Assembly (NCBI GenBank): GCA_913061025.1
Contig: CAJXUJ010000003.1
Coordinates: 1 to 33,017, forward strand
Reading direction: 5' to 3'
DNA length: 33,017 bases
From: an uncultured Actinomycetes bacterium
GTDB lineage: Bacteria; Actinomycetota; Actinomycetes; S36-B12
The first letter of the stretch is position 1. Each line of letters opens with the position of its first letter. Shown in pieces: positions 6,864-15,576 of the stretch. The notes under the pieces are model-generated. The model was not told where the DNA came from. It was given only the letters and a program-made list of their open reading frames with translations, and did no database searches. Position numbers and translations under genes: made by a program.

Positions 6864-7613
6864 CACCCATGGTCCTGCGGTGAATGCCATCGCGACGATC
6901 ATGGCGAAGGCGACGGCCAGCAGCGCCGCGAAAAAGGCTCGGGTGCGCGAATCTCCGAGCCGAACGGCGAGCGTTCTCTTGCCGGACTCGGTATCGGACG
7001 GAATGTCCCGAAGATTGTTCGTCACCAGAATCGCGCAGATCAAAACGCCGATGCCGATGCTCGCGAGCACTGCGGTGACATTGATCGAACCCACCTGTAC
7101 GTACATGGTTCCCAGCACCGGGACGAGTCCAAAAAAGACAAAAACGAAGACCTCGCCCCAACCTGCGTACCCGTAGGGACGCGAGCCGCCCGTGTAGAAC
7201 CAGGCAGCTGCTATCGAAGCCGCGCCGACCAGGAGTAACCACCAGTAGCCGGAGAGTGCAACGAGGGTCAGGCCACTGAGAGCCGCGATGCCGAAGCACA
7301 CGAAGGCGGCGTTACGCACTTTCGACGGTTGGGCGATTCCCTGACCCACCAGTCGAATCGGGCCAACGCGCCGCTCATCGGTGCCGCGGATGCCATCGCT
7401 GTAGTCGTTCGCGTAATTGACGCCTATCTGCAACGCCAACGCGACGATAAGTGCGAGCGCAGCGCGCAGGGGGATCCATCCGGTGCCCGCCAGCGCCGTA
7501 CCGATGACGACGGGAGCAAGAGCAGCGGGAAGCGTTCGTGGTCGAGCGCCAGCCCACCACTGGGAAAGCGTCGGTGTGCCGGGGGAGCCGCCCAGCGGTC
7601 GCGAGGTCGTCAC
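6702..7613 (-). CDS. menA: 1,4-dihydroxy-2-naphthoate polyprenyltransferase MenA
   Basis: 303 residues, UbiA-superfamily membrane protein with about eight to nine helices. It begins with the MenA-like WWAGARPRTLPAALAPVVIGTALA. The first Asp-rich motif is NYANDYSDGIRGTD (prenyl diphosphate/Mg binding); the second is NNLRDIPSDTESGKRTLAVRLG. It attaches the polyprenyl chain to 1,4-dihydroxy-2-naphthoate in the membrane, giving demethylmenaquinone, the substrate of MenG. The GTG start at 7613 overlaps the menE stop (GTGA), so menE and menA are one minus-strand operon. Its 3' end overlaps DUF4229 on the opposite strand by 162 bp. The polyprenyl donor is probably made by the synthase at 31780. Confidence 0.96.
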   Translation of the reverse strand: MTTSRPLGGSPGTPTLSQWWAGARPRTLPAALAPVVIGTALAGTGWIPLRAALALIVALALQIGVNYANDYSDGIRGTDERRVGPIRLVGQGIAQPSKVRNAAFVCFGIAALSGLTLVALSGYWWLLLVGAASIAAAWFYTGGSRPYGYAGWGEVFVFVFFGLVPVLGTMYVQVGSINVTAVLASIGIGVLICAILVTNNLRDIPSDTESGKRTLAVRLGDSRTRAFFAALLAVAFAMIVAMAFTAGPWVLLGLVALPWAWRPWRIVMSRTRGPGLIPALVATGQLVSVYAIALSLGLVIPVL

Positions 7614-8824
7614 ACCAGATCCTCGTCGTCGGTTTCTGCTAGTTCGAGTCCGACGGCTGATGAGGTGGCTCGACGATCGACTTTCCCGCTGGCCGTCGTT
7701 GCGAACTCGGTCACCCGATGGATGGACGTGGGAACTGCGATGGAGCCGAGACCGGGAGTGATGCGCGCGCGGATGTCCTCAGAGTCGATTTCGTCGCCTA
7801 TGTAGATCATTGCAATCCGGACATCGTGGTTGGCGTCGAACGTTGGAACAACTATCACGCTGTCGACCCCGGGATGGTCGGTAAGCCGATCCTCGATCGC
7901 CAGCAGATCGACATTCACGCCCTGGATACTGACGATGTCGTCGAGACGCCCGATCACCTGCAGAGTGCCGTCCATCCAACGCCCGCGATCGTTCGTGCGC
8001 AGCCATCCATGTGCAAAGGCCTCGTTGGCGCCATCTCGGTAGCCCTGGGCGAGCATCGGGCCAGACAGGCTGACGCGTTGGTCGTGGTCGTTGACGTTGA
8101 CGTCAACCCCCGGGAGGGGGATTCCATTCAGTACGCAACCGCCGCTCGTCTCGGTCATGCCATACGTGGTGGTGACGGCGATTCCGGCGTCGTCACAGTC
8201 GCGCGCAGCCTGGGGTGCAAGGGCCGCCCCACCGACGAGGATCAATGAGCAGCGCGCGAGTGCTCTGCGGCCCGAGTCAGTGGCCAGCAGTCGCGGCAAT
8301 TGCGTTGGCACGAGTGAGACGGCGATCGGGCGATTGAATGACTCAGCTGTATCGACCGCTTCTGCGAAAGCGTGATCGGTGAAGCGCTCCGCACCGCCGA
8401 CGCTACTGACCGCTACCGGGCTCCGACCGGTCGCGTGAGCTCGGACGAGCACGTTGAGTCCGCCGATCGATGTCGGGGGTATAGCCAGGATCCAGGTTGG
8501 GTCACCACCGGCACGTGCGTTGACGTGGGACGTCATGGAGGTGAGCGCCGAAGCGGTCAGCATCACTCCACGCGGATTACCCGTCGAACCGGAGGTGCTC
8601 ATCACGACGGCGGTGTCCATGGGCACGGGTCGGTCGGGATCAACGGCGTCGCGAATAGCGGACACCACGGCGGTCGGCAGCGCCGATGATTCCTGTGGAA
8701 TGGGAGCGATCGCGGCGTCACCTGCGAGCGCGGCCGACAGTCGAGCCCAGATAGCGGTGACCGCTGCGGGTCCGCTCGGCACCTCGATCAGTTCGAGGGT
8801 CCGTTCTGTGGCGCTGTTCGACAT
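7610..8824 (-). CDS. menE: o-Succinylbenzoate-CoA ligase MenE
   Basis: 404 residues from ATG at 8824. The longer track start (8875) would lie upstream of the TACGCT -10 box, which sits 7 bases before 8824. ANL-superfamily adenylating enzyme: P-loop [16 protein letters not shown] (74-89), A5 motif [12 protein letters not shown]7 NDRGRW, hinge [14 protein letters not shown], and A10 catalytic lysine in [10 protein letters not shown] (K381). It activates o-succinylbenzoate with ATP to the CoA thioester, the substrate of MenB. It is shorter than the roughly 450-490 residues of many MenE proteins, as actinobacterial forms tend to be. It is transcribed divergently from menB with only 37 bp between start codons, and co-transcribed with menA (4-base overlap). 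Confidence 0.93.
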
Positions 8825-8831
8825 CGTGCCG

Positions 8832-8837
8832 AGCGTA
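8832..8837 (-). promoter_or_regulatory. Predicted -10 box (TACGCT) of menE-menA
   Basis: On the minus strand TACGCT ends 7 bases before the menE ATG at 8824, giving a leaderless transcript. It is 11 bp from the menB -10 on the other strand. Confidence 0.55.
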
Positions 8838-8848
8838 GGTGCTGCCGG

Positions 8849-8854
8849 TAGCGT
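8849..8854 (+). promoter_or_regulatory. Predicted -10 box (TAGCGT) of menBCD operon
   Basis: TAGCGT ends 7 bases before the menB ATG at 8862. It is paired back-to-back with the menE -10, so the two polymerase footprints must overlap. Confidence 0.55.
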
Positions 8855-8861
8855 TGTCGCT

Positions 8862-10862: not shown

Positions 10863-12617
10863 GTGGAAACCCAGATGCCTCCGTCGGTTGCCCAAGCCCT
10901 CGTGATGGTGGACGAACTCATGCGCTGCGGTGTCACGGATGTGGTGCTCGGCGTGGGGTCTCGGTCGGCACCATTGGCCCTTGCGTTGGCGGCCGCAGAA
11001 GAACGAGGCGAAATTCGACTCCACGTACGCGTCGACGAGCGCGTCGCGGGATTCCTTGCCCTGGGAATCGGCAAGGCGACGGGGGTGCCCGCTGCAGTCG
11101 TGACGACTTCGGGAACGGCCGTGGCAAATCTGCTGCCGGCCGTCGTTGAAGCTCACGAGTCGCGCATCCCACTCATCGTCCTCACCGCGGATCGGCCGGG
11201 CCGCCTTCGCGATGTGGGCGCTAACCAGGTGATCGCTCAGTCGGGCATCTTCGGCAGGTTCAGCAAACTCGACATTGACATGGAGCCGGCCCACGGCAAC
11301 GAGAATCGCTACTGGCGGTCCACAGTCGCCCGGAGCGTGGCGGTGGCGACGGATTCCATCGATCCGGGACCCGTTCACGTGAACGCTCCCTTCGAGGAAC
11401 CCCTCGTCGGTGACGCGGTGATGCAGCCACTCCCGCCCACGTTGGCAGGTCGCCCTGATGGTCGGCCGTGGACCGCGGATGCACGGCTCGTCGCCGGGAT
11501 GAGCATTCCGCTGGACGAGGCGCTCGCGCTGCTCGATGAGCAGGCGACCGTTCCCGCGCGGGGCCTGATCGTGGTTGGTGATCACAATGACGACGACACC
11601 GTGGATCTCGTAGACGAACTCGCCGATGCGCTCGGCTGGCCGGTCATCTCCGAACCATCGGGACGAGCGAGTGGCGCTCAGCAGGGATTGGCGCACGGTC
11701 CGCTGGTGTGTGACGACCCGAGTTTCGTCGATGCTCATGTCCCGGATCTGGTGATCACAGTGGGCCGGGTAGGTCTCTACCGCTCGCTAGCGGCGTTGAT
11801 AGCCGCATCGACCATGCACATCGCAGTCGACACGCGCTCGTCCTGGAGTGACCCCACTCGCAGTGCCGACCTAGTACTCGCGTCGGTCCCATTGCCTCCC
11901 TCGTCGGCGGGCGATGACCCCGAGTGGTGGTCGGATTGGGAACGGGCGGACCTCCTTGCGGCCGCTGCCGTGGAGACAGTGCTCGGTTCGGACAGTGGTG
12001 TGCTGACCGGAATGCAAGTAGCGCGCGTCGTGACGAGTGTGCTTCCGGAAGACGGTCAGTTGTTTCTCGGATCCTCTTCTGTGGTCCGACACGTCGGCAG
12101 TTTCGCCGGAGGCTCGCTCGCCACTATCGATGTTCTGGGGAACCGTGGAACGTCCGGCATCGATGGCTGTGTGTCGACCGCGTGGGGTGCAGCGGTGGGC
12201 TTTCAAGCACTCGGTGGAGGCTCGACCGTGGCGTTGGTTGGCGATGAGACCTTCTGGTACGACTCCAATGCCCTCGCCGTGTCACAGGAAGAACCGCGGC
12301 CCGATCTCGTCGTCGTCGTTGTGGACAACGACGGCGCCGGAATCTTCTCGACGCTCGAACAGGGTGCGGGCGCGTTCGAGTCGCACTTCGATCGGGTCTT
12401 CGGAGTGCCGTTGGGTCTTCGACTGTCGGAGCTCGCGTCGAGCTACGGCGTCTCGGTTTGCGAAGTCACCTCGGGCTCAGAGTTAGCCGAGGCAGTGAGC
12501 GAGCGGCTGTCGGACGGAGTTCACGTCGTGGTTGTCCGAACCTGCGATCGGACGATGGAGGCTGAAACACTCTCGAGCGTGCGGGATGCCGTTCGCCAGG
12601 CGATCGACAGCGGCTGA
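10863..12617 (+). CDS. menD: 2-Succinyl-5-enolpyruvyl-6-hydroxy-3-cyclohexene-1-carboxylate synthase MenD
   Basis: 584 residues, three-domain ThDP-dependent enzyme. N-terminal: GVTDVVLGVGSRSAPLALAL, catalytic glutamate E59 in VRVDERVAGFLALG, VVTTSGTAVANLLPAV, LIVLTADRPGRLRDVGANQ. C-terminal ThDP/Mg motif: VALVGDETFWYDSNALAV ending VVVVDNDGAGIFS. It adds the succinic semialdehyde unit from 2-oxoglutarate to isochorismate, the first committed step. GTG start at 10863, 4 bases after menC. No menH gene lies between menC and menD, unlike some gene orders. The substitution of GVGSRS for the common APGSRS is minor. The length is within the family range. Confidence 0.96.
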   Translation: METQMPPSVAQALVMVDELMRCGVTDVVLGVGSRSAPLALALAAAEERGEIRLHVRVDERVAGFLALGIGKATGVPAAVVTTSGTAVANLLPAVVEAHESRIPLIVLTADRPGRLRDVGANQVIAQSGIFGRFSKLDIDMEPAHGNENRYWRSTVARSVAVATDSIDPGPVHVNAPFEEPLVGDAVMQPLPPTLAGRPDGRPWTADARLVAGMSIPLDEALALLDEQATVPARGLIVVGDHNDDDTVDLVDELADALGWPVISEPSGRASGAQQGLAHGPLVCDDPSFVDAHVPDLVITVGRVGLYRSLAALIAASTMHIAVDTRSSWSDPTRSADLVLASVPLPPSSAGDDPEWWSDWERADLLAAAAVETVLGSDSGVLTGMQVARVVTSVLPEDGQLFLGSSSVVRHVGSFAGGSLATIDVLGNRGTSGIDGCVSTAWGAAVGFQALGGGSTVALVGDETFWYDSNALAVSQEEPRPDLVVVVVDNDGAGIFSTLEQGAGAFESHFDRVFGVPLGLRLSELASSYGVSVCEVTSGSELAEAVSERLSDGVHVVVVRTCDRTMEAETLSSVRDAVRQAIDSG

Positions 12618-12629
12618 CGAGTCAGTTTC

Positions 12630-14345
12630 ATGGACCCCGAGCGTCGCGAAAGGATCGTTCAAGCAGCGGCCGATCTGTTTGCCGCTTACGGAGTAATCAA
12701 CGTCGGACGACACGACATCGCGCGCCGAGCCGACGTCACGATGCGATCGGTGAACGCCGTCAGTGCCCACCGAACAGACCTGCTCCGGGAAGTGCTCGAG
12801 CGTCTCCCGACCAGCCCGGTTGCCGAAGCCATCCGGGCGCAGGCGGATAGCCCCTCCGATGAAGAATCTGGGGCGACGGCGATGTCGGCTCTTCTGTCTG
12901 CCGCTCACGAAGCGCTGGGTAACCCATCGGCAGCATGGGATCCGCTCGAATTGCAGGCTCTCGCGGCCGCGCCTTATGACGACGCTCTGCGCGCCCTTGT
13001 CGGATACCGCGTCGAGCGCCGCTGGGATGCGGTGCGCGAAGTCCTTCGACAACTCGAAATCTCCGGTGACCGGAAAGACGTAGATGCAGCGGTTTTGCAC
13101 GTGCTGGCTGTAGGGATCGGTGTTGCTGTGCTCGCACCGGTTCTGCCGGGGGCGCACGACACCCGGGCGTGGACTGCTTTAACAGCCCGCATCATGGAGA
13201 GCCTGTCTGCGCATGAGCCGCTTGCCGGACAGGGGTCGGGATTGGGGCCAGCGGGCCGCACCTGGCGGGCGCGACTACAGCTTCCGAGCGGCCCGGATTC
13301 GATTGCTCACCTCACTCGGGTGTTGTCCATGCTCGACGTATCACTCGTCACGATGACGGTGGCTCCGGTAGGGGCCGACGAGACTATGTCCCTGATTGAT
13401 CTGATCCTTCGGTCTTCCGATCAGATGTCGCGCGCGATGGTTGTCGATTCCCTTCGGACTGTGGGTGAAGACGTGGTAGTCGGTCGAGGTCAAGAAGGCG
13501 ATGTCGATGATGTTGCCGCCCGAGTTCTCGAACTCAGCACTCGATTACTCGGTCAACCGGAGTTCGCTCCGCAAGCTGCCGCCGAACTGCTGCTCGCGGA
13601 TTCCTGGCAAGTGGTCGACGCCTCGGTGGGCGAGGACTCCTCGCCTTTTGCGGCCCGTCTGCAGTGGACGGTTGATCGACACGTGATCGTCCGCCGAGCC
13701 AACGCCCCCTTCACCGCTGGTGAGTACGCGCGCGCGACCGCGCTGCTGGAGTTGATGGACGCGGTAACCGTGGCTCACGGCGCTGCGAGTTTCGGCTGGC
13801 TCGACACTCTTGCCGATGGCACGGAGTTGGTTACTCGGCTTGCGCGGCCCGAGGACACCGCCGAAGTCGAGAACCTGCATCGGCGCTGTTCCCCTGACAG
13901 CCTCTATCAGCGGTATTTCACGCCGAAGAACACGTGGCGTGAAGAGAACCTGCGCCGAATCTCCGGAGGTCACCGCGGGATCACCCTCGTCGTTACCCGG
14001 GGCGAGGCCGAGATCGTGGCTATTGGAAACGCTTTTCCGCTTACTCCGGACGAGGGGGACTCCGAACACTTCACCCGGGGCGAAGTTGCCTTACTGGTGG
14101 ACGACGAATGGCACGGACAGGGCATCGGTCGGCTGCTGCTCAGCCATCTCATCGAATCGGCCCCGCAATTGGGGTTCACGCACCTGGTGGCTTTCGTACT
14201 GGAAGACAACGTCGCAATGCAGTCGTTGCTCGACGCGGAGGTGTGGGAGACGCGTCCGGCCCCCGATCTCGGAGCGAATGCGCGCGCATACGCCGCTTCG
14301 GTTGAAGCGCTTAGCGAGACTCGAGAGCCGTCTTCATCGGAATGA
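12630..14345 (+). CDS. Multidomain regulator: TetR-like HTH + ACT/GAF-like sensor + GNAT acetyltransferase
   Basis: 571 residues, starting 12 bases after menD and probably in the same operon. Residues 1-60 resemble a TetR HTH (ERIVQAAADLFAAYGVINVGRHDIARRADVT), with a helical TetR-C-like region to about 200. The recognition helix is odd: MRSVNAVSAHRTDLL replaces the usual TLYxHFxxKxxLL. Residues about 211-285 look like an ACT domain (IAHLTRVLSMLDVSLVTMTV...). Residues about 290-385 may be a GAF-like half domain (VIVRRANAPFTAGEYARATALLELMDAV). Residues about 400-545 are a GNAT domain of the protein-acetyltransferase type (CSPDSLYQRYF; acetyl-CoA loop EWHGQGIGRLLL at 493-504). ACT-GNAT lysine acetyltransferases controlled by amino acids are known in actinobacteria, but I know of none with a TetR front. 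The 3' end overlaps menF by 35 bp. Domain calls are by eye; GNAT is the surest. Confidence 0.7.
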   Translation: MDPERRERIVQAAADLFAAYGVINVGRHDIARRADVTMRSVNAVSAHRTDLLREVLERLPTSPVAEAIRAQADSPSDEESGATAMSALLSAAHEALGNPSAAWDPLELQALAAAPYDDALRALVGYRVERRWDAVREVLRQLEISGDRKDVDAAVLHVLAVGIGVAVLAPVLPGAHDTRAWTALTARIMESLSAHEPLAGQGSGLGPAGRTWRARLQLPSGPDSIAHLTRVLSMLDVSLVTMTVAPVGADETMSLIDLILRSSDQMSRAMVVDSLRTVGEDVVVGRGQEGDVDDVAARVLELSTRLLGQPEFAPQAAAELLLADSWQVVDASVGEDSSPFAARLQWTVDRHVIVRRANAPFTAGEYARATALLELMDAVTVAHGAASFGWLDTLADGTELVTRLARPEDTAEVENLHRRCSPDSLYQRYFTPKNTWREENLRRISGGHRGITLVVTRGEAEIVAIGNAFPLTPDEGDSEHFTRGEVALLVDDEWHGQGIGRLLLSHLIESAPQLGFTHLVAFVLEDNVAMQSLLDAEVWETRPAPDLGANARAYAASVEALSETREPSSSE

Positions 14346-15576
14346 GCTTGGCGCGCGACTCGGCGAGTTCGCGTTCGGGATCGGAACCGGCCACGATGCC
14401 GCAGCCGGCGAAGGCGCGGACAGTTCCGGCCTCCCGATTCACGAGTCCGCAGCGCAGAGCAATGCCGAACTCGCCATCTCCTCGAGCGTCGAACCAGCCC
14501 ACCGGACCCGCGTAGCGATCGCGGGACATCCCTTCAAGTTCTCCAATGACAGTCAACGCCCGTTCGGTGGGAGTGCCGCACACCGCCGCGGTGGGGTGCA
14601 GTGAAGCGGCGAGCGAAAGGAGTGATGCGTCGTCGGCGAGACGGCCCGTGACGTCGGTCGCGAGGTGCTGAACGTTCGCGAGTTCGAGCACGCCGGGGCT
14701 TTCGGGGAGGTCCATGTCGGTGCAGTGCGTAGCGAGCGCCTTTGCGACGGAGCGAACGGCATACGCGTGCTCGGCAAGGTCCTTGTCGCTGGCGAGCAAT
14801 GCCTGCGCCAACCCTTGATCCTCTGCGCTATCGCCGCGGCGTCGCACGGTCCCGGCGAGTACCCGACTCGTGACCAAATCACCGGTTCTACGAACGAGCA
14901 GTTCCGGGGTGGCGCCGACGAGATCCGCAACGTTGAACGTCCAGCAGGTCGGATAGTCGCGAGCCAGCCGGTCGAGCAGCAGTCGAGAATCCACGTCACC
15001 TTCGACGTGAGCTATGACGTCTCGCGCGAGAACCACTTTGTCGATCTCACCCGCATTGATGCGTTCGACCGCCTGGCCGACGGCCTTCTCCCACTCCGGT
15101 CCGCTCATCGCGCCGTCGTTCCACGTAACCGAGATGGGGGAGTGTCGGGGTGTGTGCGCGGTGATCTCGTCGGCACGGATAGGTGCCTCGGCGCCCGGCG
15201 CGTGGATCGTGGTCAACCACGCTTGACCCGAACGCTGTCCGACGAGGACCGCGGGAACGATGATTTCCGAGGCGTCCTGAGGGTCGAAGGCGTACGACGC
15301 AAAGGCAATGGGGCCGGTGCCCGGCACGCTCACCGAGTCATCGATGGACATCGTTTCCAGGAGTTCTGCCCACCACCGCTGGGAGCGGGAGAAGCGTTCC
15401 ACTCCGCGAACCTGCAATCGCGCCGCGATGCCCCAACCGACGAGTCCTTCACCGCGCCGTACCCAACACAGGTTCTCGCCGTCGGGCAGTAGCGACAGCA
15501 GGTCGAGATCCGCATCCAGGGGACGGGTAGTCGCAATGAGCTGTGTAGGTGCTTCTGCGTGGGGATGCGGGGACAC
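14311..15576 (-). CDS. menF: Isochorismate synthase MenF (EntC/DhbC type)
   Basis: 421 residues, chorismate-utilising enzyme fold. Seen: [11 protein letters not shown], the isochorismate-synthase lysine region [106 protein letters not shown], and the C-terminal Mg/chorismate loop [19 protein letters not shown]. It converts chorismate to isochorismate for MenD. Siderophore-type isochorismate synthases are close relatives, but the men setting decides the call. GTG start at 15576 lies 6 bases after TACCCT on the minus strand. Divergent from menG (51 bp apart); convergent with the acetyltransferase gene, overlapping it by 35 bp. Confidence 0.93.

Follow-up and report, generated by a model that had tools for sequence, protein, structure and literature searches.

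The cAMP-regulated Pat enzymes of mycobacteria (MtPat, Rv0998, and MsPat) carry a regulatory N-terminal cyclic-nucleotide-binding domain fused to a GNAT acetyltransferase domain, with neither a TetR nor an ACT part, and HTH heads are found on other GNATs, as in the MarR-GNAT proteins, which have a different HTH family and no ACT. Actinobacteria also code for amino-acid-regulated ACT-GNAT protein acetyltransferases (AAPatA) such as AmiPatA, SvePatA, and MaKat, which act on Acs and respond to Cys or Asn, and the Cys response of AmiPatA requires D16 and S17 of the ACT DxPGxL region (PMC6434083). A link between a GNAT and menaquinone (MK) synthesis is described for the reversible AcuA-MenE-SrtN system of Bacillus subtilis, in which the GNAT protein AcuA acetylates MenE at the catalytic lysine of a PX4GK motif and MK-dependent growth is lowered (PMC11619455). 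Escherichia coli MenE does not have the motif proline at position -6 and is not acetylated (PMC11619455).

Here we describe a gene in which a TetR head precedes an ACT fold, a middle domain, and a GNAT domain, and which lies among the menaquinone (men) genes of an uncultured actinobacterium. The window, the whole 33,017-nucleotide stretch of DNA that was analyzed, comes from a fragmented metagenome-assembled genome (MAG; 1.55 Mb, 256 contigs, 79% complete), and records of the same genus are labelled Candidatus Nanopelagicales or Actinomycetota MAGs. The gene (12630 to 14345, + strand) is a single intact reading frame of 571 codons with an ATG start and a TGA stop, as originally described, and the frame is conserved among relatives. 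Because full-length, intact relatives are present in many independent genome assemblies, we reject a frameshift or an assembly join, such as one to a separate GNAT gene, as the origin of the 571-aa chain. All domains, including the HTH, are under purifying selection (dN/dS of ∼0.02 to 0.27 wherever dS could be estimated, with several dS values near saturation), and a Foldseek search with the whole chain ranks Pat enzymes first. The original prediction proposed a four-part layout, of which the TetR, ACT, and GNAT parts are borne out by profile and structure evidence and a GAF-like part is not.

The TetR head occupies residues 1 to 193. Its HTH (12630 to 12809, + strand; residues 1 to 60, with the HTH helices at 27 to 34 and 38 to 44) is modeled with a pLDDT of >93 and scores E = 0.011 against TetR_N, under the gathering score, in a single-sequence Pfam search; of 34 relatives, 23 give a TetR_N match at E ≤ 0.01. 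A family profile matches residues 1 to 186 to the solved TetR proteins 3qbm (E = 3e-10) and 2nx4 (E = 2e-9), and the TetR-type C-terminal domain (12810 to 13208, + strand; residues 61 to 193) is all helical in the structure model, with helices running to residue 193, in agreement with the TetR-like HTH and C-terminal helices first read from the sequence. This domain, presumably used for dimerization and ligand binding, is retained where the HTH is lost. The HTH motif is unusual (RSVNAVSAHR, compared to the common GTLYxHFxSK type) and under selection (dN/dS, 0.06 to 0.23). Three of the 34 aligned rows (L099, L101, and L109) do not have the HTH and retain all other parts; these are clean deletions, and a hidden frameshift was rejected since no HTH remnant is present in any frame.

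Searches for operators, phylogenetic footprints, and inverted repeats gave nothing above chance or specific to gene-bearing genomes; the inverted repeats that precede the gene in 17 relatives are neither in excess over shuffled sequences nor shared. The transcriptional control that had been proposed for the protein is thus weakened, as no operator was found in these searches and the HTH is deleted in three relatives that keep the enzyme part. We note that one relative outside the men locus (L104) has a C-terminal histone H1-like tail rich in lysine, alanine, and proline (about positions 11600 to 11824 of that locus) with KKAAPRKAAAKK repeats; the tail may be a second element that binds DNA.

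The ACT fold (13257 to 13487, + strand; residues 210 to 286) has no match in a single-sequence Pfam search of the window protein. ACT models match this segment in 12 of 33 relatives (best, 6e-5), and Foldseek ranks ACT-containing structures first (3ibw, TM-score of 0.68 over the target), which establishes as an ACT fold what had been noted as an ACT-like stretch. The DxPGxL ligand motif between beta1 and alpha1 is degenerate and reads PSGPDSI in the window protein. The glycine of this motif is replaced in most men-linked members and retained in most non-men relatives, with DxPGxL itself retained in, for example, L105, L108, and L110. The amino acid sensing that was predicted for this part is therefore weakened, as the region is the one required for the AmiPatA Cys response (PMC6434083), and the window protein is accordingly not classed as a Cys- or Asn-type AAPatA. 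The ACT part is under selection (dN/dS, 0.04 to 0.27) and may bind a different ligand, or none.

The segment that follows (13512 to 13775, + strand; residues 295 to 382) is a conserved domain with no family assignment. It is the best-conserved segment of the protein (50% mean identity to the window) and is common to ACT-GNAT proteins that have no TetR head. A GAF domain at residues 290 to 385 is absent from the Pfam, PDB-profile, and Foldseek results, and with neither a GAF model nor a GAF structure matching, we reject a GAF identity for residues 295 to 385.

The enzyme part is a Pat-type GNAT domain (13815 to 14300, + strand; residues 396 to 557), which is evident from the window sequence alone (single-sequence Pfam, E = 2.5e-9). 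The family profile matches residues 387 to 548 to the GNAT of Streptomyces lividans Pat (1.8e-14), E. coli PatZ (4e-13), and MtPat (5e-11), and the top matches by both sequence and fold are protein acetyltransferases, namely the S. lividans Pat GNAT (4nxy and 4u5y; Foldseek TM of 0.84 to 0.87 over the target) and mycobacterial Pat (4ava and 4avb). Structure 4u5y is a complex of the S. lividans GNAT with the C-terminal domain of Acs. The best NCBIfam match is Pat (E = 1.9e-12, under the model cut-off), and the weaker GNAT matches include phosphinothricin/ArsN-type acetyltransferases, which Pat enzymes clearly outscore in sequence and fold. Residue E485 is invariant in all 34 rows and aligns with E235 of MtPat, which we take to be the catalytic glutamate. 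The acetyl-CoA loop noticed in the first reading of this DNA spans G496-Q-G-I-G500; the QxxGx(G/A) motif reads HGQGIG, with H495 in place of a leading Q that is present in many relatives, and both of its glycines (G498 and G500) are invariant across the alignment.

The long form of the protein was found in 15 genomes, including the window's own, in a search of 59 relatives, and a scan of GTDB r220 contigs gave 43 loci, nearly all of which are labelled actinobacterial or as uncultured MAGs. It is rare among 395 genomes sampled from the class and 397 from the phylum; the remaining sampled genomes with related proteins, mostly of one genus with large genomes (probably Streptomyces), code for the ACT-middle-GNAT part only. 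Residues 206 to 530 align end to end with these head-less proteins (E values down to 1e-49 by profile), and the kinship to actinobacterial ACT-GNAT acetyltransferases expected from the outset is seen as 31% identity over 333 aa (E = 5e-26). The aligned head-less proteins of class relatives are probably members of the published AAPatA set. A tree built on the ACT-to-GNAT region has a 100/100 branch with the TetR-headed proteins on one side, as a single clade apart from the head-less AAPatA-kind proteins. One tree unites the men-linked rows in a single clade (96/98), and with head-less proteins as the root L106 groups with the non-linked rows, so that men linkage is ancestral or has two origins. 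We note that three loci titled Bifidobacterium breve (L090, L093, and L094; CAMAWO010000139.1, CAMCSO010000047.1, and CAMDKQ010000014.1) carry the men locus and cluster within the Nanopelagicales-type clade, and the label is almost surely wrong.

In the window, menB, menC, and menD lie upstream of the gene on the same strand, with menD (10863 to 12617, + strand) separated from it by 12 bp. A menF-type isochorismate synthase gene (chorismate-binding; 14311 to 15576, - strand) is convergent, and the two 3' ends overlap by 35 bp (14311 to 14345). An AMP-forming acyl-CoA synthetase gene (7610 to 8824, - strand), which from its position and family knowledge we take to be menE (OSB-CoA synthetase), is divergent from menB. 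Only 37 bp (8825 to 8861) separate the menE start (8824, - strand) from the menB start (8862, + strand), and this interval contains mirrored TANNNT-like -10 boxes (TACGCT, - strand, 8837 to 8832; TAGCGT, + strand, 8849 to 8854), each ∼7 bp from its start codon and conserved in the genus. The layout resembles two leaderless promoters placed back to back, and the interval is equally conserved whether or not a genome carries the gene.

The expectation that the gene would be kept beside menD in relatives is well supported: menD and/or menF adjoins it in 34 of the 43 loci, seven loci with good flanks have neither as a neighbor, and the other two either lie at the edge of a contig or are too short. 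Three arrangements are seen, with the gene behind menD as in the window, behind menF and facing menD, or divergent from menF (L106 and L107). Relatives outside the men locus share no common neighborhood beyond a divergent open reading frame in two of them, acyl-CoA dehydrogenase-like by eye. Among the 22 family members with no full-length gene, the menD-menF gap is about 10 to 60 bp in many. Decayed remnants lie between menD and menF at four loci (L142, L143, L141, and L115, the last a decaying copy); such remnants include a fused N- and C-terminal one (G010), a frameshifted N-terminal one (G016), and faint traces (G031). These nearly abutting genes and remnants indicate that the gene was inherited in place and often lost, and since many close relatives lack it or carry it only in decayed form, it is dispensable for menaquinone synthesis. 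In one gene-less genome (G015; L140, 1289 to 3365) ∼2 kb lie between menF and menD, with no recognizable relative of the gene inside.

The locus invites comparison with the AcuA system, as the B. subtilis GNAT acetylates MenE and the window GNAT is encoded beside men genes. The PX4GK motif is present in MenE of most relatives outside the genus (LPxLPNGK), whereas the window's MenE reads FATTASGK, with A for P at position -6, and the same position is A, E, or T across the genus with or without the gene. Two MenE proteins (L093 and L094) have a C terminus reading LPNRK for LPNGK, beside the catalytic lysine. Both Acs copies of the host genome carry the motif (LPKTRSGK); co-occurrence of Acs with the gene is uninformative, as nearly all of the relatives have Acs. 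Because the window's MenE is without the motif proline, and E. coli MenE without it is not acetylated, Acs appears from these motifs to be the likelier substrate in the host, with MenE a candidate substrate in relatives. The system also differs from that of B. subtilis in that a sirtuin is not linked with the gene, being present in 4 of the 15 genomes with it compared to 10 of the 22 family members without it; a sirtuin-reversed acetylation cycle is therefore unsupported. No sirtuin was found in the host's incomplete genome.

The explanation we favor, with evenly balanced confidence, is a regulated protein lysine acetyltransferase, in which a Pat-type GNAT is set by an ACT fold of the AAPatA kind and the adjoining domain and a TetR protein is joined to the front of the chain. 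The ACT fold and its neighbor would set GNAT activity, and the TetR part would supply a dimer and a second small-molecule pocket, as well as a DNA-binding head where the HTH survives. With the gene next to menBCD or behind menF, the level of the protein would be coupled to menaquinone synthesis, and acetyl-CoA and metabolite status could then be relayed through acyl-CoA synthetase activity to respiration. The substrates are probably acyl-CoA synthetases, namely Acs and perhaps MenE in relatives. A dual DNA-binding and acetylating role is a hypothesis; in its full form, which we consider quite doubtful, one polypeptide would bind men-locus DNA and acetylate acyl-CoA synthetases (MenE and/or Acs) or nearby DNA-bound proteins under the control of two small-molecule pockets. 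If true, this would be a one-protein circuit placing menaquinone supply under joint transcriptional and posttranslational control.

Other roles are plausible on part of the evidence. The protein could act chiefly as a TetR-type transcription factor that controls the men locus and its own gene, with the ACT and GNAT parts acting as sensors of acetyl-CoA and metabolites and no working enzyme. Retention of the same neighbors through three orientations, as is often seen with local regulators, an HTH that most members keep intact and under constraint, and the H1-like tail of L104 are consistent with such a regulator; we nonetheless consider it unlikely, given that the HTH has been cleanly deleted in three relatives with the rest conserved, that no operator stands out above shuffled controls, that the menE/menB block is equally present where the gene is not, and that the catalytic glutamate is invariant. 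The ranking of Pat enzymes clearly above small-molecule GNATs bears on a further possibility, a small-molecule acetyltransferase acting on an amino acid, an amine, or a menaquinone-pathway intermediate, with the TetR head regulating the same pathway. GNAT folds are broad, phosphinothricin/ArsN-type enzymes are among the weaker matches, and the gene is linked to a single biosynthetic pathway, but we know of no acetylation step in menaquinone biosynthesis and regard this role as very unlikely.

It is also rather unlikely that the HTH and ACT parts are leftovers, an ACT-GNAT protein having captured a TetR gene once, with DNA and amino acid binding since degenerate and these parts serving only as a dimerization scaffold. 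Loss of the ACT motif in most men-linked members and its retention in most non-men relatives would be expected of such decay, as would the unusual HTH motif, the loss of the HTH in three rows, and the repeated loss of the whole gene. However, both domains evolve under selection, and TetR_N is still recognized in most of the relatives.

The regulated acetyltransferase that we favor is best viewed as a variant of the ACT-GNAT acetyltransferases; its parts and plan are known, and its architecture is new to the literature and libraries searched. It resembles AAPatA in having a Pat-type GNAT behind an ACT fold in the same chain, in its catalytic glutamate, and in its actinobacterial range, and it departs from them in the additional TetR head, its separate clade, its fixed place in the men locus, and, in the window protein, the lost DxPGxL motif. 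With mycobacterial Pat it shares a regulatory N-terminal domain on the same kind of GNAT, although the mycobacterial regulator is a cyclic-nucleotide-binding domain. To our knowledge, the TetR-ACT-GNAT architecture is not known for AcuA. A search of the literature for TetR-GNAT or TetR-ACT-GNAT proteins found nothing relevant, and no NCBIfam model scores the window protein above its cut-off, so the statement in the original prediction that no member with this domain order has been described is upheld.

Of these findings, the constant position in the men locus is the most interesting, with a Pat-type acetyltransferase bearing TetR and ACT folds kept in the menaquinone (vitamin K2) cluster across dozens of uncultured actinobacteria. 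The protein is a candidate for respiration-linked control by acetylation. The full, HTH-less, decayed, and absent versions of the gene provide a natural system in which to ask whether one protein runs both the acetylation and the transcription of one pathway.
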